Part shown: positions 5,541-12,783 of the stretch, piece after piece
Numbering within the stretch: the first letter of the stretch is position 1
Layout: each line of letters begins with the position of its first letter
From: an uncultured Pelagibacteraceae bacterium
GTDB taxonomy: Bacteria > Pseudomonadota > Alphaproteobacteria > Pelagibacterales > Pelagibacteraceae
NCBI GenBank assembly: GCA_902587295.1
Contig: CACIKS010000008.1
Location: 1-41,179, forward strand
Direction: 5' to 3'
Length of the DNA: 41,179 nt
Made by a program: the position numbers and the translations under genes
The notes under the pieces: generated by a model
Databases searched by the model: none
Seen by the model: only the letters and a program-made list of their open reading frames with translations
Told to the model about the DNA's origin: nothing

Positions 5541-6337
5541 GGAATGCAATAGATTTAGCTTTTCAAAAAGGCAGGGTTGAAAAAAAACCACTTTTAATTT
5601 CCTACACTGTTTGTGGGGACCCTAATAAAAAAAAATCTCTTGAAATTTTAAAGTCGATCTCAGAATATGTAAATATTGTAGAATGGGGCTTTGCCCACAA
5701 CTGTCCAACAGCTGATGGTCCTGACATACAAAACAGCTCTTATAGAGCAATTAAAAATGGGGTAAATTTAAAAGATACTTTTAAATTAGTTAAAGATTAT
5801 AAAAAATATAAAAATTCAAAACCGTTAATTTTGATGGGCTATTATCAAATGATTTTTCACTATGGTGAAAAAAGATTTGTAAAAAAATGTAAAGAGGTTG
5901 GTGTTGATGGATTAATCGTAGTTGATCTTCCTTGGCCTAATAATAAAGATATTGCTAAACTTTGTAAAAAAAACTCGATTTGTTTTATTCAGTTGGTTGC
6001 ACCTACAACAACCAAAAAAAGAATGAAAATGATAATTAAGGACAGTCACCAAATTCTGTACCAAATTTCTATGATAAGTACGACTGGAAAGAAGTTGAAA
6101 GTTTCGTCCAAAGAAATTATTAAAAATAACAAGATAATAAAACGAATTAATCCCAAAAAAAACGTTGTAGTAGGCTTTGGTATTAACAAAAAAAATATAT
6201 CATCACTTAAGAAATGTGACGGATTAGTAGTAGGTTCTGCTATATGTAAAGAAATATCAACATCGCTAAAGAACCGTCAAAATCCTGTCAAAAAGTTGAA
6301 TAAAATGGTAAAAGAATTAAAAAGAAAAATGTCATGA
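5537..6337 (+). CDS. trpA: Divergent tryptophan synthase alpha chain-like aldolase
   Basis: TIM-barrel protein of 266 aa, the usual TrpA length. In canonical TrpA this subunit cleaves indole-3-glycerol phosphate into indole and glyceraldehyde-3-phosphate. Both catalytic acids remain at the same numbers, E49 (VEWG) and D60 (ADGP), as do Y175 and T183 and the phosphate-binding VGFGI and VGSAI segments. The loop before D60, normally PFSDP, reads AHNCP, so D56, which pairs with beta K167, is Cys. SRSGVTG is replaced by SMISTTG. I chose the ATG at 5537, which overlaps the TrpB-like stop as ATGA. An upstream in-frame ATG at 5477 would add a non-homologous 20-aa extension. It overlaps accD by ATGA. 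Confidence 0.8.
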   Translation: MRNAIDLAFQKGRVEKKPLLISYTVCGDPNKKKSLEILKSISEYVNIVEWGFAHNCPTADGPDIQNSSYRAIKNGVNLKDTFKLVKDYKKYKNSKPLILMGYYQMIFHYGEKRFVKKCKEVGVDGLIVVDLPWPNNKDIAKLCKKNSICFIQLVAPTTTKKRMKMIIKDSHQILYQISMISTTGKKLKVSSKEIIKNNKIIKRINPKKNVVVGFGINKKNISSLKKCDGLVVGSAICKEISTSLKNRQNPVKKLNKMVKELKRKMS

Positions 6338-6822
6338 ATTGGATAAAAAATTTTATTAAACCAAAAATTAAATCTTTATTTAAAAAAAAATCTTCAGATA
6401 GCAAAGATGCATTATGGGCAACATGTGAATGTAAAAATCTAATTTATAAGGAAGATCTTTTTAAAAATTTAAGTGTCTGTCCAACTTGCGGGTCCCATCA
6501 CAAACTTACACCCGATGAAAGATTTAAAATTTTCTTTGATAAACAGCAATACGAAATTTTGGAAGTGCCTTTACCTAAGGATGACCCTTTGAATTTTAAA
6601 GATACAAAAAAATATACAGAGAGATTAAAAAAAGCCAGAGAACAAACAAAGCAATCAGACGCTATAGTAATTGCAAAAGGAAAATTAAATGGAATTGATG
6701 TTACAGTAGGTGCACAAAATTTTTCTTTCATTGGTGGGTCATTAGGCGCAGCTGCTGGAGAGGCTTTTATACATGGTATTCAAAACTCAATTGATAATAA
6801 AAATCCTTTTATTTTTTTTTAG
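6334..6822 (+). CDS. accD: Acetyl-CoA carboxylase carboxyltransferase beta, N-terminal part (frame broken)
   Basis: N-terminal half of AccD, the carboxyltransferase beta subunit that with AccA moves carboxyl from biotin to acetyl-CoA for fatty acid synthesis. After a basic leader it shows a zinc ribbon whose first cysteine pair is CEC (spacing one) rather than the usual CxxC; the second, CPTC, is normal. It then runs through FSFIGGSLGAAAGEAF and stops at TAG right after a nine-T run, at the point where the family continues SASGGARMQ. The start ATG overlaps the TrpA-like stop (ATGA). Removing one T restores a single frame of about 308 aa. Confidence 0.88.
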   Translation: MNWIKNFIKPKIKSLFKKKSSDSKDALWATCECKNLIYKEDLFKNLSVCPTCGSHHKLTPDERFKIFFDKQQYEILEVPLPKDDPLNFKDTKKYTERLKKAREQTKQSDAIVIAKGKLNGIDVTVGAQNFSFIGGSLGAAAGEAFIHGIQNSIDNKNPFIFF

Positions 6823-7261
6823 CTGTAGCGGGGGAGCTAGAATGCAAGAGAGCGCTATTGCTCTTATGCAAATGACACGATCTGTTTTAGCTGTGCATGA
6901 ACTTAAAAAAGCAAAAGTACCCTACGTTGTTGTAATGACGAATCCAACAGCTGGTGGAGTTACAGCTTCTTTTGCTGGTCTAGGTGATATTTTAATTGGG
7001 GAACCAAAAGCTATAATCGCATTCGCAGGACGCCGAGTTATACAAGATACTGTAAAAGAAGAATTGCCGGAAGAATTTCAAACAGCAGAATTTGTAAAAG
7101 AACACGGTGGGATTGACTTGGTAGTGGAAAGAAAATATCTAAGGTCAACAATTTCAACACTTTTATCAATTCTATTGAAGAAAAAAGAAGCTCAAGCTAT
7201 ATCTACAACTGATGTCGCAACCTTCGAAGAAACTTTACCAAAAACTTCAAAAGCAGTATAG
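6773..7261 (+). CDS. accD: Acetyl-CoA carboxylase carboxyltransferase beta, C-terminal part (frame broken)
   Basis: Continuation of accD in the +1 frame. Homology begins at 6821 (SCSGGARMQES); codons from 6773 to 6820 in this frame are not AccD-like. The part contains NPTAGGVTASFA, the oxyanion-type GRRVIQDT segment and EHGGIDLVV, all typical of the AccD carboxyltransferase core. No good independent start or ribosome-binding site is seen, so this half is unlikely to be a free-standing gene. The tail overlaps folC by 50 bp. The protein is essential in most bacteria, and the flanking halves are well conserved, so a functional product through slippage or an uncorrected base is likely. Confidence 0.85.
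   Translation: MVFKTQLIIKILLFFFSCSGGARMQESAIALMQMTRSVLAVHELKKAKVPYVVVMTNPTAGGVTASFAGLGDILIGEPKAIIAFAGRRVIQDTVKEELPEEFQTAEFVKEHGGIDLVVERKYLRSTISTLLSILLKKKEAQAISTTDVATFEETLPKTSKAV
6812..6820 (+). other. Nine-T homopolymer at the accD frame break
   Basis: Nine consecutive T follow ATT at 6811. With nine T the frame reads Ile-Phe-Phe-stop. With eight it would read Ile-Phe-Phe-Ser-Cys-Ser-Gly-Gly-Ala-Arg, matching the conserved AccD core. Either a one-base insertion error in sequencing or assembly, a true recent frameshift, or a slippage site used by RNA polymerase or ribosomes could explain it. The sequence cannot tell these apart. Confidence 0.85.
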
Positions 7262-8468
7262 CCGAAGGATTAATTTAGATCTTAAAAGGATAAAAAGAGC
7301 TTTAGAAAAATTAAACTATCCAGAAAATCAACTTGAAAATGTTATAAACATAATTGGTAGTGATGGGAAAAATAGTGTTTTAACTTCATTAAAATATTTT
7401 CTTGAAGCAAATAATCAAAAAGTAAATACTTTTACCAGTCCACATTTATATGATGTTCGACAAAGATTTTGGTTAGGAAATAAATTTATTTCACTCAAGG
7501 AAATAAAAAAATACAAAAAAAAAATAGAGCAAACAAAACAAAAACTTACTCTATTTGAGTTGCTTACCTGTATTTATATTTTAGCAGCCGCTAAAACAGA
7601 TTCTAACTCTTATAACCTTATAGAAAGTGGATTATTGTTTAAAAAAGATAGTACAAATCTATGGTCTTATCCTTTAGCACAAATAGTGACAAATATTAAT
7701 TACCAGCACCAAGAGTGGGTAACCCCAAAAACAATAGGTGAAATATGTAGACAAAAAGTGGGGTCTTTAAGTGAAAATACTAAAATTTATATGGGCAAAC
7801 AAAAACCAAAAACATTAAAAATTATTAAAAATATTTTAAAAAAAAATCCAAGTACTAAAGTGCTTTATGGATCTTGGAAGATCATAAATAAAAATAAAAG
7901 AAAATATTACAAGGATGATAATAATTTAATAGAACTTAATTCTAAATTTATTAATTCGGATGGTTTGTGGGAAAATGTGAGCTTAGCAATAAAAGTGGCT
8001 TTAGATTTAGGGGTAAATATTAAAATAATTAAAAAAACTCTTCCGAAAATACAGTTTGAGGGTCGAGTACAATTTATTAAAGGTAATTTAACTAAAAACC
8101 TAAAAAAAACCAGAGTTTTAGTGGATGGTTGTCATAGTGATGCATCTACTAAAAATTTAGCTAGGTATTTGAAAAAATTTAAAATTCCTGTTTATGGAAT
8201 TTGGGGAAGTCTAAAAAATAAAAACCCAGACCAGCTTATAAAAAATTTTAAAGGTATTTTTAAAAAAGTTGTAACGATAAAAATTCCAAATGAGCCTAGT
8301 GCAGTAAGCTCTTTTGATTTATATAAAATAGCCAAAAAAAATAGTTTTCTTACTATTGAATCTAAAGATATCAAAGATGCTTTAAAAAAAATTTCAACAA
8401 AAGAAAATAAATTGATTGTCATATTTGGAAGCCTCTATCTTGCGGGATATGTTCTTAGTATAAATTAA
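7212..8468 (+). CDS. folC: FolC-like folylpolyglutamate/dihydrofolate synthase
   Basis: Mur-ligase-family enzyme of 418 aa that would add glutamate to (dihydro)folates. Order of motifs: P-loop region IGSDGKNSV (canonical GTNGKGST), TSPHLYDVR, ESGLLFKKDSTN (canonical EVGLGGRLDATN), TNINYQHQEWV and DGCHSDAS (canonical DGAHNP). Core residues (the P-loop Lys and Ser, the Glu, the His of QHQE, the Asp-Gly-x-His) remain, but several small conserved residues are changed, so it is a divergent member. The ATG at 7212 lies 50 bp inside accD, and the resulting N-terminus fits the family. It is convergent with trxA, with stops overlapping by 4 bp. The accD-folC neighbourhood supports the assignment. Confidence 0.86.
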   Translation: MSQPSKKLYQKLQKQYSRRINLDLKRIKRALEKLNYPENQLENVINIIGSDGKNSVLTSLKYFLEANNQKVNTFTSPHLYDVRQRFWLGNKFISLKEIKKYKKKIEQTKQKLTLFELLTCIYILAAAKTDSNSYNLIESGLLFKKDSTNLWSYPLAQIVTNINYQHQEWVTPKTIGEICRQKVGSLSENTKIYMGKQKPKTLKIIKNILKKNPSTKVLYGSWKIINKNKRKYYKDDNNLIELNSKFINSDGLWENVSLAIKVALDLGVNIKIIKKTLPKIQFEGRVQFIKGNLTKNLKKTRVLVDGCHSDASTKNLARYLKKFKIPVYGIWGSLKNKNPDQLIKNFKGIFKKVVTIKIPNEPSAVSSFDLYKIAKKNSFLTIESKDIKDALKKISTKENKLIVIFGSLYLAGYVLSIN

Positions 8469-8785
8469 ATATTTTCTTTTATCCAAGAAACAATGTTAGA
8501 TTTTGTAGTAGCGCCAACTTTAGTTGCTTTAAGTTCCCCAGATTTAAATAAAAGCATTGTCGGGATTCCTCTGATTCCGTACCGAGTCGGAATATTTGGT
8601 TCTTGATCAATATTATGTTTAGCAATCACAACATCATTAGACATCTCGTTTGAAATCTCTTCAAGAATCGGGCCAATTTGTTTGCAAGGACCACACCACT
8701 CGGCCCAAAAATCTACAATAGTTGGTTTTTGTGATTTAATTACGTCTGACTCAAAACTCTCATCAGTTACTTTTTTAGTAGCCAT
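8465..8785 (-). CDS. trxA: Thioredoxin
   Basis: Cytoplasmic disulfide reductase, 106 aa, standard length. The redox site WCGPC is at residues 30-34 inside VDFWAEWCGPCKQ. The cis-proline loop is RGIPTMLLF. It follows the four-gene nuclease cassette on the same strand after a 31-bp AT-rich gap and is convergent with folC. No separate promoter is clear in the gap, so read-through from the cassette is possible. Confidence 0.97.
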   Translation of the reverse strand: MATKKVTDESFESDVIKSQKPTIVDFWAEWCGPCKQIGPILEEISNEMSNDVVIAKHNIDQEPNIPTRYGIRGIPTMLLFKSGELKATKVGATTKSNIVSWIKENI

Positions 8786-8816
8786 AAAAATATAAATAAA
8801 GTTTTTTTTAAAAATG

Positions 8817-9122
8817 TCAATTTAACAATTTTGTTTTATTATCAATTTTGTTAATTTCTTTTCTTAAATATCTAGCTTCTATACAAATTTTTTCATATTG
8901 ATAATTCCATCTAAATCTATTTATTAAATACACAATATTGGTAGGAAGGTTTATTAGGTAAACAATTGAAAATATTAACGGTCGTTGTTTAAAGAATTCT
9001 AATTCTGCTTTATTCTCTATTTCTATAAATTTTTTATACCTATAAGCTTTTACAATCCAATCCATTTTATATTTCAAATTCTCTTTTAAAAAATCTGCTT
9101 GTCTATATTCGCCCCACGACAT
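8817..9122 (-). CDS. Hypothetical 101-aa protein, last gene of nuclease cassette
   Basis: I do not recognise this family. The ATG at 9122 overlaps the exonuclease stop by one base (TGATG), implying translational coupling; an in-frame TTG three bases earlier is the only alternative. The protein is basic and aromatic-rich, with a central hydrophobic stretch at about residues 47-68 (PLIFSIVYLINLPTNIVYLI) that could be a single membrane segment or a hydrophobic hairpin. Charged helices flank it. The location suggests it works with the exonuclease and DUF2130 proteins, but nothing in its sequence shows how. Confidence 0.65.
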   Translation of the reverse strand: MSWGEYRQADFLKENLKYKMDWIVKAYRYKKFIEIENKAELEFFKQRPLIFSIVYLINLPTNIVYLINRFRWNYQYEKICIEARYLRKEINKIDNKTKLLN

Positions 9123-10537
9123 CAAGCTACCTCATATTTTTTTTGTATATCCATAACAAGAGTATTGTAATCTTCAAGCAACGCAAGTTTTTTGCTATCA
9201 TTTTCATATTTGGCTCTAGCATCATCAATTTGTTTCATAAAGTCTCCAACTGTAGTCCAATTTTCATTTTTGTCAGAAAAAATCCTTTTTGCTATATCAC
9301 GTCTAACATCTTTATAAATTCTTTCTGAAGTAGACTGAAGTATATCAGGCCTTTCAGCATGGCAGATATGTGCTGCAAAAAAATTATATTTGTCCTGTTC
9401 AAAACTACCAATTAATTTTATTTTATTTTTCCAATCAGAAGAATGAAATTTTTCCATTAAGATTTCATCTTTTTTATCAGCAAATTTACCGTCATATATA
9501 GTTTCTTCTGGTTGAAGATTTGGCTTATCTTCTTTTAAACTAATTTTCTCTTGAGCTTGCTCTTCAATAATATCTAAGACTAAATTTTTAAATTCATTAT
9601 TTGCATTTAAAGCGTTAGCTCTTTCAATAAGGGTTTTAGTGCCAATTTTTTTATAAATTTCATTTTGCAGCGCATATTCCTGTTGTAGGAGAACAATGCT
9701 TTTATTAGTTCGAATAGTTCTAATTGGACGAGGGGTTTTTTTTAATTCACGAGCTAAATCTTTTTTATTTAAGTTAAAATAGTCCTCGGGTGGATTAGCA
9801 AGATCCCATGCTAGACCCCATCTATAAATTTTATGAAAACCGATAAAAGTCACAGCGTAGGCACGAAGACGCCCGTAAAACCATTCGTGATTACAAAAAA
9901 TTTTTTCTTTCTTAATAAAGTTTTCGGCCCCTTCCTTATAAAGAGTATTTAAATAATTGTTCCAAAGCATTTTATTTTTTTTGTAAACAAGTTTAAGCAA
10001 AGACTCACATGCAATAGTGTCAGAACGTGCTCCATGACTATCCTCCCTGGGTATTAAGGTATCAAGTTTAAATATTGGATTATTTTTTTCAGACATTTTT
10101 GTTTTTATAATTTTGTCATCAATTAACTTGGCGGATCTTATAATATTTAAAATATCGCCTTGCTTATTACCGTTAGTATTTGTTAAGTAGGGTTTTTTTA
10201 AAGATTTAAACAACCACTTCCTTATTACCTCAATGTCATAATTTGTCGAATTATACCCAAAGAAAATAACTTTTCCCCAAGACTGAAATTTCTTTTCTGC
10301 ATCAAGTAAAAGTTGAAAATTACTTTTGTTTGTATTTCTTAGAGTATCAGCACTAATTTTACAGACTTCCATCACGGCAGTAAGATTAGGTATTACACCT
10401 TCTGTTAATCTTGCGCGCCCATGAAATTCATCTAATTCATTAAATTCATCGTCAACTAATTTGGCATAAATTTCCAAGACAGAATCAAACGATGTACTGG
10501 CCCCGCTAGCTTCTAGGTCAAAAATTACATAATTCAT
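9122..10537 (-). CDS. sbcB: Exonuclease I (SbcB-like 3'-5' ssDNA exonuclease)
   Basis: DEDDh-type exonuclease of 471 aa, about the length of E. coli ExoI. ExoI digests single-stranded DNA 3' to 5'. The metal-binding set is visible as D7 and E9 (FDLEASG), D101 (NSTNYDIE) and H168/D173 (HGARSD). The C-terminal half has ExoI-type features, including WGLAWDLANP and a TPRPIRTIRTNKS segment that matches the SH3-like/extended region. It is coupled to DUF2130 upstream (ATGA) and the 101-aa protein downstream (TGATG). Fold and activity class are clear. Its role with these partners is not. Confidence 0.85.
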   Translation of the reverse strand: MNYVIFDLEASGASTSFDSVLEIYAKLVDDEFNELDEFHGRARLTEGVIPNLTAVMEVCKISADTLRNTNKSNFQLLLDAEKKFQSWGKVIFFGYNSTNYDIEVIRKWLFKSLKKPYLTNTNGNKQGDILNIIRSAKLIDDKIIKTKMSEKNNPIFKLDTLIPREDSHGARSDTIACESLLKLVYKKNKMLWNNYLNTLYKEGAENFIKKEKIFCNHEWFYGRLRAYAVTFIGFHKIYRWGLAWDLANPPEDYFNLNKKDLARELKKTPRPIRTIRTNKSIVLLQQEYALQNEIYKKIGTKTLIERANALNANNEFKNLVLDIIEEQAQEKISLKEDKPNLQPEETIYDGKFADKKDEILMEKFHSSDWKNKIKLIGSFEQDKYNFFAAHICHAERPDILQSTSERIYKDVRRDIAKRIFSDKNENWTTVGDFMKQIDDARAKYENDSKKLALLEDYNTLVMDIQKKYEVA

Positions 10538-11649
10538 TTCTTATCCTTTTTTTTTAAACCATATTCAGCTGTCATTGCAAAAAACTCATCGAGATAGCTA
10601 TCAAAATTAAGATATTGCTTTTCTAAATCTCTGGTCAATTTTTTTTGTTTTCCAACTATATCCTCAAAACCAAACATATTGTTCTGGATTAACCCCATTA
10701 AATTTTGAAAGTCAGGTGAGCTAAAAAATTCAAGAGCAGATTTCTTGTTATCTTTATTCTCATTCTTATTCATAAGATCGTATTTTTCTAAAAACTTTCT
10801 TTGAAGTTCAGCTAACATTCTGAGTTTTTCAAAATTATAATTACAAATAAAAATATTACCTTTTTGTATAAATGCTTTTTTTGGATTGAATTCTTTTGGA
10901 ACTGCAGTAGTAAATATGATTCCAGCATCTGCTTTTGTCTCTTTCATATCTTGTTGTAATTTATCTATCCAATTCTTTGAAAAGGATTTGGTTTTTTTGC
11001 TCTCATATAAAATTCTACCGATTTCTACTCCTCCATTTTTTACCTTTTGCAGCCAATCGGCACCTGGCTCACCTTTTTCATAAGCGGTAATTTCATCATC
11101 TTTATCATCGAATACTTCTTTTAATAGTTTCCCTATTGTAATTTCTTGAGCAGAACCTTGATCGGCAGTTAAACCTTGGTTTCCTCTTTCTTTCGCCTTT
11201 TCCATATCTTTCTGCATTCTCTCTATTTTAAGTTTATAAACATTTTCTCTCTGTTCAGACTGCCTTTTTTCCTGTTTTAACTTCTCATCAATTTTTGCTT
11301 TTGAAACAGACTCAGCGGCTTCTACTGCGGCTTTGATATCTTTTTTCTTATCTGACTCTAGTTGTTTTATCTTAAGATCTTTTTCTTTTTGGACTTTTAA
11401 AAAATCCTTTTTTGCTTCTTCTCTTGCATTTTTCTTGTTATCTTCTATTTCTCTCTTTTTTAAACTTTCAAGCTTCTGTCTTTCTTTGATAATCAGATCC
11501 TGAGCTTTTTTATCTGCCTCTTTTATTCTTTTGTCTGCAAGATCTTTAAAATTTTTTTCTTTTTGAGCAGCGAGGGACTGAGCTCTTTTTTCAGCTACCT
11601 CGCCTAACTCAATTTCTTTTTTACAGTGTGGACATTTAAACTTTTCCAT
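10534..11649 (-). CDS. DUF2130 family coiled-coil protein with PD-(D/E)xK-like nuclease core
   Basis: 371 aa. It opens with a short Cys pair (CPHC, residues 6-9), probably half of a zinc ribbon, followed by a long Lys/Glu-rich coiled coil (about 20-155). Residues 157-250 form the DUF2130 core, with E169 in a helix, D198 (GEPGADW), and E216-x-K218 (RILYESKKTKSF). This spacing fits a restriction-endonuclease-like active site. The C-terminal helical part (260-371) is less conserved. Start and stop are coupled to both neighbours (TAATG and ATGA). DUF2130 proteins are widespread and uncharacterised as far as I know; nuclease activity is inferred from the motif. Confidence 0.8.
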   Translation of the reverse strand: MEKFKCPHCKKEIELGEVAEKRAQSLAAQKEKNFKDLADKRIKEADKKAQDLIIKERQKLESLKKREIEDNKKNAREEAKKDFLKVQKEKDLKIKQLESDKKKDIKAAVEAAESVSKAKIDEKLKQEKRQSEQRENVYKLKIERMQKDMEKAKERGNQGLTADQGSAQEITIGKLLKEVFDDKDDEITAYEKGEPGADWLQKVKNGGVEIGRILYESKKTKSFSKNWIDKLQQDMKETKADAGIIFTTAVPKEFNPKKAFIQKGNIFICNYNFEKLRMLAELQRKFLEKYDLMNKNENKDNKKSALEFFSSPDFQNLMGLIQNNMFGFEDIVGKQKKLTRDLEKQYLNFDSYLDEFFAMTAEYGLKKKDKK

Positions 11650-12035
11650 TAGTGGATAGTATCCGACTCCTGTTTTGCCATTGATAATTCTGGGAAATTT
11701 TCTGCCAGAAAATCTGAGTGATTTCGTGTCACTTCCTCTGTACTGCCTTTATCAAGATACTTAAATGCAGGATAAGAAAGTTTCATTATCACAGCCTGTT
11801 TTATGTAGAAAAGGAAGTTGTAATAAAACCTCTCAACATCAATTCCTGCATTTGAAGCAAAATCATCAAGATTTTTACAAACTTCTTTTGCATAATCATT
11901 TACACGAGCAGTTTCTACTTCCTGTTTGTTCATTGGAGTAACATTTTTTATTATCTCCAACTTCTTGGATTTAAAAGGAATAACGTTGTTTTTAACGTTT
12001 TTAGATCCTTTATTGCCTTTTTTTACTTTAGACAT
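11649..12035 (-). CDS. Hypothetical 128-aa protein, first gene of nuclease cassette
   Basis: Not a family I recognise. The N-terminal 25 residues are strongly basic and likely disordered (Lys, Asn, Ser, Gly). The rest looks helical, with acidic stretches and a YYNFLFYIKQAV segment around residues 86-97, and no signal peptide or clear membrane span. The ATG at 12035 has a good AAAGGT ribosome-binding site. Its stop overlaps the DUF2130 start by one base (TAATG). As the leader gene of a tightly coupled operon with two nuclease-type proteins, it may bind DNA or regulate the others; that is inference only. Confidence 0.65.
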   Translation of the reverse strand: MSKVKKGNKGSKNVKNNVIPFKSKKLEIIKNVTPMNKQEVETARVNDYAKEVCKNLDDFASNAGIDVERFYYNFLFYIKQAVIMKLSYPAFKYLDKGSTEEVTRNHSDFLAENFPELSMAKQESDTIH

Positions 12036-12117
12036 AACTTACCTTTCTAAAGCATTACTGTTTTTATATTCGATTATTTAATTTTAAGCGTATATTACAA
12101 TAATAGCTTCATAAATT

Positions 12118-12146
12118 AATATATACATTGTTTTTTAAAAAGTCAA
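12118..12146 (-). promoter_or_regulatory. Sigma70-type promoter for the nuclease cassette
   Basis: On the minus strand, TTGACT (12146-12141) and TATATT (12123-12118) are separated by exactly 17 bp, close to the consensus -35 and -10. Transcription would begin near 12110, giving a leader of about 75 nt before the 128-aa gene. The region also lies in front of the divergent DUF3047 gene. Confidence 0.55.
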
Positions 12147-12165
12147 GGGTTAAATATATTTTTTT

Positions 12166-12783
12166 ATGAGAACTTTAATATTTTTTTTTATATCACTATT
12201 ATTGTTTAACAATCTAAGCGCGAAAGAATTCCGAATCGATTTTAGTGATGAAGGTATGAAGCTTTTAAAAAAAAGAGGATTTGGAAAAAAAACTCTTTAT
12301 ACAAATGGTAAAGATAAAAAAGGATGGTATTTAAAAGCTGAAGCAGTAGATAGTGCAACAGGTTTGGGTATGGAAATCGATGAAGATCTTCTTAATGAAA
12401 TGCCGTTTTTAAATATCACTTTCAAAATTGAAAAGGATTTTACAAATATCAATCAAAAGACTAAAGACGGCCACGATTGGACTGCAAGAGTAATGGTTGG
12501 GCATGGAAAAAAAATCGGTGCTAAATTGGTAAGCTTGGCGCACTCATCATTTTTAGAGGAGGGTTTTCTACAACAAAGTCCTTGGACTAAAGGAAGCAGA
12601 GATTATGTTATTTCGAATGACAAAAGTGGTGAATGGCATACAAGAAAGATAAATGTGCAGGAATTACTTGAGGAAACTCACGGAATTTCTTTTACCAACT
12701 TTATTGCTATATTTTCTGACTCGAATAACTCAAAACAAAAAATTATTGCATATTACCGGGATATCTATTTTAGTAGTGAGTAA
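12166..12783 (+). CDS. DUF3047 family secreted protein
   Basis: 205 aa with a cleavable signal peptide (about residues 1-19, ending LSA). The mature part matches the DUF3047 pattern: a SATGL-type segment after GWYLKAEA, an ITFKI strand, HDWTARVMV, a WHTRKINV segment and the closing IAIFSDSNNS...AYYRDIYF, which corresponds to the family's DTDNT and GDI motifs. The family has no established function known to me; it probably adopts a carbohydrate- or lipid-binding-like beta fold in the periplasm. No ribosome-binding site is evident before the ATG. The stop overlaps the dioxygenase start (TAATG), so the two are co-translated. Confidence 0.78.
   Translation: MRTLIFFFISLLLFNNLSAKEFRIDFSDEGMKLLKKRGFGKKTLYTNGKDKKGWYLKAEAVDSATGLGMEIDEDLLNEMPFLNITFKIEKDFTNINQKTKDGHDWTARVMVGHGKKIGAKLVSLAHSSFLEEGFLQQSPWTKGSRDYVISNDKSGEWHTRKINVQELLEETHGISFTNFIAIFSDSNNSKQKIIAYYRDIYFSSE

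Follow-up and report, generated by a model that had tools for sequence, protein, structure and literature searches.

A recombinationally exchanged exonuclease I cassette of SAR11 with a DUF2130 protein in the place of RmuC

A four-gene cassette beside trxA

The window analysed here, the whole of a 41-kb contig (41,179 nucleotides) from an 852-kb Pelagibacterales (SAR11) assembly with a completeness of 76%, carries between trxA and a DUF3047-type gene a cassette of four minus-strand genes, in the order U128, DUF2130, sbcB and U102. Its anatomy is that of a recombinationally exchanged variant of the exonuclease I (ExoI, SbcB)–RmuC pair, with a DUF2130 protein substituted for RmuC and a pair of dedicated small genes added, and the same cassette is carried by Pelagibacteraceae single-cell genomes among the relatives. 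A preliminary description, made from the sequence alone, had reported four coupled genes, and all four open reading frames were recovered, joined by overlapping stop and start codons (TAATG, ATGA and TGATG). Comparison of non-synonymous with synonymous substitution (dN/dS) revealed purifying selection on all four; among four genomes the ratios were 0.08–0.43 for U128 and 0.13–0.38 for U102, and because these are low we regard both small genes as real.

The sbcB gene (9122..10537, minus strand) encodes 471 amino acids with an N-terminal exonuclease and an Exonuc_X-T_C domain (Pfam PF08411, 44.9 bits against a cut-off of 27). Its DEDDh residues D7, E9, D101, H168 and D173, to which the preliminary description had pointed, are intact and invariant in 45/45 SAR11 SbcBs. 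Since the protein scores far under the cut-off of the NCBIfam equivalog NF008746 (95.7 of 260 bits), it is to be read as a divergent homologue, not as a certified exonuclease I equivalent. It is only ~35% identical to the SbcB of same-genus genomes with a resident RmuC–SbcB pair.

The DUF2130 protein (10534..11649, minus strand, 371 amino acids) exceeds the curated score of PF09903 (85.7 bits, cut-off 26.7), a family that we take to be COG4487 and for which the literature searched held no published function. The residues E169, D198, E216 and K218 named in the preliminary description are present and invariant in nine homologues, so that the protein has the conserved E-D-ExK pattern of its family, and they are accompanied by an N-terminal, zinc-ribbon-like CxxC pair (C6/C9). 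In the predicted model (predicted local distance difference test, pLDDT, 69), a 138-residue helix, which would form a coiled coil, precedes an alpha/beta domain whose strands and helices are placed as the E...D...(D/E)xK motif of the PD-(D/E)XK superfamily demands. The closest structures in the PDB were restriction endonucleases (E 0.009–0.06) and SPARDA complexes, all weak matches, and in a viral library Mrr-like endonucleases (best E 3e-7) with low template modelling (TM) scores. The motif and the model together suggest that the protein is a nuclease. It has no match to RmuC (PF02646) in the Pfam search and no match to any PHROG, and by hydropathy it lacks a hydrophobic N-terminus, unlike nearly all RmuCs examined, in which this segment is strongly hydrophobic. 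What distinguishes this member of the family is its coupling to ExoI at the position that RmuC normally fills. DUF2130 genes were also seen in two phage contigs (L220:3935-5152 and L221:3650-4831), in the first of which the gene adjoins open reading frames that read as a DNA ligase and a family A DNA polymerase.

Neither U128 (11649..12035, minus strand, 128 amino acids) nor U102 (8817..9122, minus strand) has a match in Pfam, PADLOC, PHROG or NCBIfam. A PDB sequence profile of U128 returned chance matches only, and the AlphaFold2 model has three helices at low confidence (pLDDT 60); the protein is probably helical. The U128 family has so far been met in Pelagibacterales only, being found neither outside this order in the samples searched nor in the viral contigs searched. 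One weak clustering edge (5e-5 over 94 columns) joined U128 to a PDDEXK family and was rejected as evidence of homology. U102, a helical protein with an L-P motif, has 101 amino acids from its ATG start and 102 from a TTG one codon upstream. The hydrophobic segment that the preliminary description had noticed in it is strong in the window's clade (mean hydropathy 1.9–2.3) but weaker in other members (0.8–1.8), which makes a true membrane span unsure. The U102 family is also wider than U128, and away from trxA it occurs by nuclease genes of PD-(D/E)XK, Cas4-like and TM0106 type; at several other variable places (L188, L182, L185 and L200) U102-like genes stand directly beside PDDEXK_1 genes, so that U102 may accompany small SAR11 nuclease genes in general.

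Exchange of the cassette and of its partner nuclease

The preliminary description knew of no system of this makeup; in fact SbcB is a normal SAR11 resident, usually partnered by RmuC, of which the window holds a variant with DUF2130 in the RmuC slot. SbcB was found in 89/101 related SAR11 genomes, adjoining trxA and folC in nearly all loci read, with other genes intervening in some relatives. Because the sbcB-trxA-folC arrangement is shared by an alphaproteobacterium of another family (G439), this position is old. RmuC was found in 85/101 relatives, one of them a weak partial match, and lies next to SbcB in most loci read. The window's cassette shares with this resident pair its place, its orientation and the coupling of SbcB to an upstream coiled-coil protein with a motif of PD-(D/E)XK type, but has the CxxC pair of DUF2130 instead of the N-terminal membrane helix of RmuC, adds U128 and U102, and carries the divergent SbcB described above.

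DUF2130 occupies the RmuC slot upstream of SbcB in the window and three sisters of one genus (G000, G008, G013 and G026) and again in G042, of another genus. RmuC was undetected in these five genomes, an absence that is only likely because the assemblies are 63–92% complete. Two swaps can be read directly: U128-RmuC-SbcB-U102 (G033, G142) against U128-DUF2130-SbcB-U102 (the window and G256, the latter with an sbcB broken into two frames), and RmuC-PDDEXK-SbcB-trxA with U102 nearby (G190) against U102-DUF2130-PDDEXK-SbcB-trxA (G161, G353). In one further genome (G072) DUF2130 sits apart from RmuC-SbcB. What is chiefly new here is the substitution of DUF2130 for RmuC.

Exchange of the whole segment is recorded in its flanks. 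The SbcB tree places the window's genus in three clades, and a constraint holding these together is rejected (approximately unbiased (AU) test, P = 7e-71), whereas the window's FolC clusters with the FolC of the sister genome G029, which carries a plain RmuC-SbcB pair; the two trees thus conflict. DNA identity to G029 is lost just after trxA, at 8786..8823, and the other limit of the exchanged segment lies at 12036..12165, identity returning where the DUF3047-type gene begins. The four-gene cassette and RmuC-SbcB are therefore alternatives between common flanks, and the cassette has been exchanged by recombination. Against the sister cassettes, silent sites of U128 and DUF2130 differ by about 0.2–0.35, whereas those of sbcB are near or beyond saturation; the neighbours of sbcB are 86–98% identical to their counterparts, and sbcB alone is strongly diverged (~65–79% identical over 9300-10540). 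Such a diverged gene amid similar neighbours is a sign of a second, allelic exchange inside the cassette.

The conserved flanks are trxA (8465..8785, minus strand), together with the convergent folC, on one side and, in this genus, the DUF3047-type gene (12166..12783, plus strand) on the other. The right limit contains the promoter-like TTGACT-17-TATATT (12146-12118, minus strand), rated a good promoter in the preliminary description; with 14 promoter-like sites in the region against a shuffle mean of 16.3, it does not stand above chance. In G008 (L046:4641-5060), and likewise in G013 (L045), the trxA beside the cassette is a divergent thioredoxin frame with an internal stop and an open reading frame of 59 amino acids only. 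Elsewhere in the window, accD (6334-7261) reads as two overlapping 162-amino-acid open reading frames in different frames at a long T run (~6811-6819), while its relatives have a single frame of ~309 amino acids, which points to an error in the assembly or to a frameshift in the gene.

The members of the cassette also travel together. Among 397 Pelagibacterales genomes, U128 was found in 20, U102 in 44 and DUF2130 in 21, and, uncorrected for kinship, each pair co-occurred beyond expectation: U128 with U102 in 14 of the 20 U128 genomes (2.2 expected, P = 1e-10), U128 with DUF2130 in 7 (1.1 expected, P = 2e-5) and U102 with DUF2130 in 8 (2.3 expected, P = 8e-4). SbcB lies within four genes of U128 in 23/23 distinct U128 loci, and every U128 locus has RmuC or DUF2130 except a 4.5-kb contig fragment of G011, whose RmuC is on another contig. 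These associations, with the defence genes found at the site in relatives, uphold the earlier suggestion of a defined cassette. Of the counter-case named alongside that suggestion, a fixed housekeeping position without co-occurrence of the two small genes, one half is borne out, as the position is conserved, but the other is not, as the small genes do co-occur.

The RmuC sequences give a hint as to catalysis. In 13/40 copies of SAR11 RmuC, that of G029 among them, D-S-H or D-A-H replaces the canonical D-x-K (loci L055, L056, L057, L059, L063, L211 and others), and these proteins may be catalytically altered. RmuC in U128 loci keeps D-x-K in 16/17 genomes, against 10/22 without U128 (counted per genome, among related genomes), and DUF2130 retains E-x-K; the cassette versions therefore resemble canonical nucleases, and the resident copy may be a non-canonical one, as far as a single motif in related genomes can tell.

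Defence genes at the site in relatives and the possible role of the cassette

In relatives, the trxA site is a defence hotspot. In one genus (g3), where hisG and trxA border it, the site is often large, and among its contents are a RecB-like/RNase H/SF1-helicase protein (TIGR03491), an S24 repressor-like protein, Pif1 helicases, a WGR protein, phage-type exonucleases and a 530-amino-acid HExxH protein. The family of the last, with HELSHATG or HELGHATG and an N-terminus that by eye is possibly GHKL-like, was seen near RmuC in three loci (L116:7066-8658, L184:6124-7713 and L053:5201-6805). In G168 (contig C9; L122, L222, L223) DISARM genes lie between hisG and the thioredoxin gene, with DrmA (E 3.6e-123 to solved DrmA), DrmB (4.5e-80), a C5 methyltransferase and, besides these, an AspBHI-Mrr endonuclease, all on the same strand as an adjacent PDDEXK-SbcB-U128-RmuC; in G205 it holds MzaB (2e-28) and a methyltransferase. 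The trxA site may correspond to hypervariable region 3 of SAR11, in whose reported gene list one gene is called 'recb-like' and another 'possible exonuclease' (PMC2217521).

Because the site collects anti-phage genes in relatives, the cassette may act on foreign DNA, processing it or destroying it, and our preferred reading, held at a probability of roughly 0.55, is that it degrades foreign or aberrant DNA and has been shaped by phage. As a horizontally exchanged variant of the ExoI–RmuC pair that SAR11 keeps beside trxA, it would act through SbcB, which by family function would digest single-stranded DNA 3′→5′, while DUF2130 would replace RmuC as its partner, a nuclease cutting or holding the ends or the secondary structures of DNA. 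U128 and U102 would be small accessory proteins dedicated to the cassette, such as a regulator, a tether or an adaptor. Most probably the cassette would serve to clear away replicating DNA that is foreign or aberrant, and phage pressure would drive its exchange. We infer the nuclease activity of DUF2130, its physical partnership with SbcB, the roles of the two small proteins and the anti-phage role alike. More tentatively, U128 and U102 might mark an undescribed, SAR11-restricted, modular system against phage or other foreign DNA, in which ExoI is combined with an exchangeable coiled-coil PD-(D/E)XK nuclease (RmuC with canonical D-x-K, or DUF2130) at the trxA hotspot and which spreads by exchange through homologous flanks.

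Several observations weigh against a defence role for a DUF2130-for-RmuC cassette. No known defence gene lies beside the window's own cassette; profile comparison (4% probability) did not show DUF2130 to be homologous to RmuC; strict exclusion of one by the other was rejected, three genomes (G107, G114 and G255) carrying both near SbcB and G072 carrying them apart; and the co-occurrence P values overstate the case because related genomes are not independent. That SbcB, and usually RmuC too, is nearly universal in SAR11 points to housekeeping. The rival that survives best, which we consider less likely, is that the cassettes hold alternative repair or recombination nucleases, acting on hairpins, 3′ tails or short-repeat inversions and swapped by the free recombination of SAR11 with no link to phage. 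It fits the old position of sbcB, common even to another family of the class, the purifying selection on all genes and the E. coli RmuC, which limits inversions at short inverted repeats (PMC1189080), but it leaves aside that the two small genes are carried by few genomes, that the partner nuclease was repeatedly swapped, that known anti-phage genes accumulate at the relatives' site and that sbcB alleles were exchanged even within otherwise similar cassettes.

Less probable still is a phage or mobile-element recombination module captured at the trxA site, whose nucleases would serve the element's own replication or integration. The locus showed no integrase, no structural gene and no tRNA target, the viral contigs searched yielded no U128, the window's DUF2130 has no PHROG match, and the exchange resembles homologous recombination in the flanks, all of which outweigh the presence of DUF2130 in phage replication modules and of S24/CI-like repressors and phage-type exonucleases in the extended islands. 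Control of a toxin–antitoxin kind, in which U128 and/or U102 would restrain a harmful DUF2130 or RmuC nuclease until infection, is very improbable, for although the small genes are coupled to nuclease genes, an accessory protein of the Shield defence system restrains its RmuC-domain nuclease (PMC10270631) and the HExxH protein stands beside RmuC in several SAR11 islands, most SAR11 have plain RmuC-SbcB without U128 or U102, so that the resident nuclease needs no such partner.

By its repeated appearance in the RmuC slot beside ExoI, DUF2130 gains a concrete role that can be tested. The trxA site is an apparent compact hotspot of defence and DNA processing in highly abundant ocean bacteria whose phage-defence content is, to our knowledge, poorly described, and U128 can serve as a marker for locating such loci in marine genomes.

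Comparison with known defence systems

The cassette is a member of none of the three defence systems that it most recalls. From DISARM it is separated by the lack of DrmA, DrmB or a methylase among its four genes (Pfam and PADLOC), the likeness lying in the chromosomal site, which in G168 DISARM shares with PDDEXK-SbcB-U128-RmuC; RmuC homologues inside DISARM loci were reported together with Shield (PMC10270631). With the reverse-transcriptase-linked systems of the DRT class (RTasSbcB and RTasRmuC in PADLOC) it has in common that both enzyme families are partners in defence loci, and the window's SbcB matches the RTasSbcB model (1.7e-48), but this match reflects the SbcB family in general, and no reverse transcriptase was found among the four genes in Pfam or PADLOC. 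Shield of Pseudomonas, in which the RmuC-domain protein ShdA degrades DNA and protects against phage (PMC10270631), differs in that the window's protein is a DUF2130 without RmuC domain or membrane anchor, that ExoI is the constant partner in SAR11, and in its accessory genes and bacterial group. The likenesses to Shield are a coiled-coil, putative nuclease with a motif of PD-(D/E)XK type, variable accessory genes, a setting in defence islands and, in other SAR11 loci, a 530-amino-acid HExxH protein near RmuC that recalls Shield's pairing of the metallopeptidase-like ShdB with RmuC. The cassette may nevertheless work like Shield.

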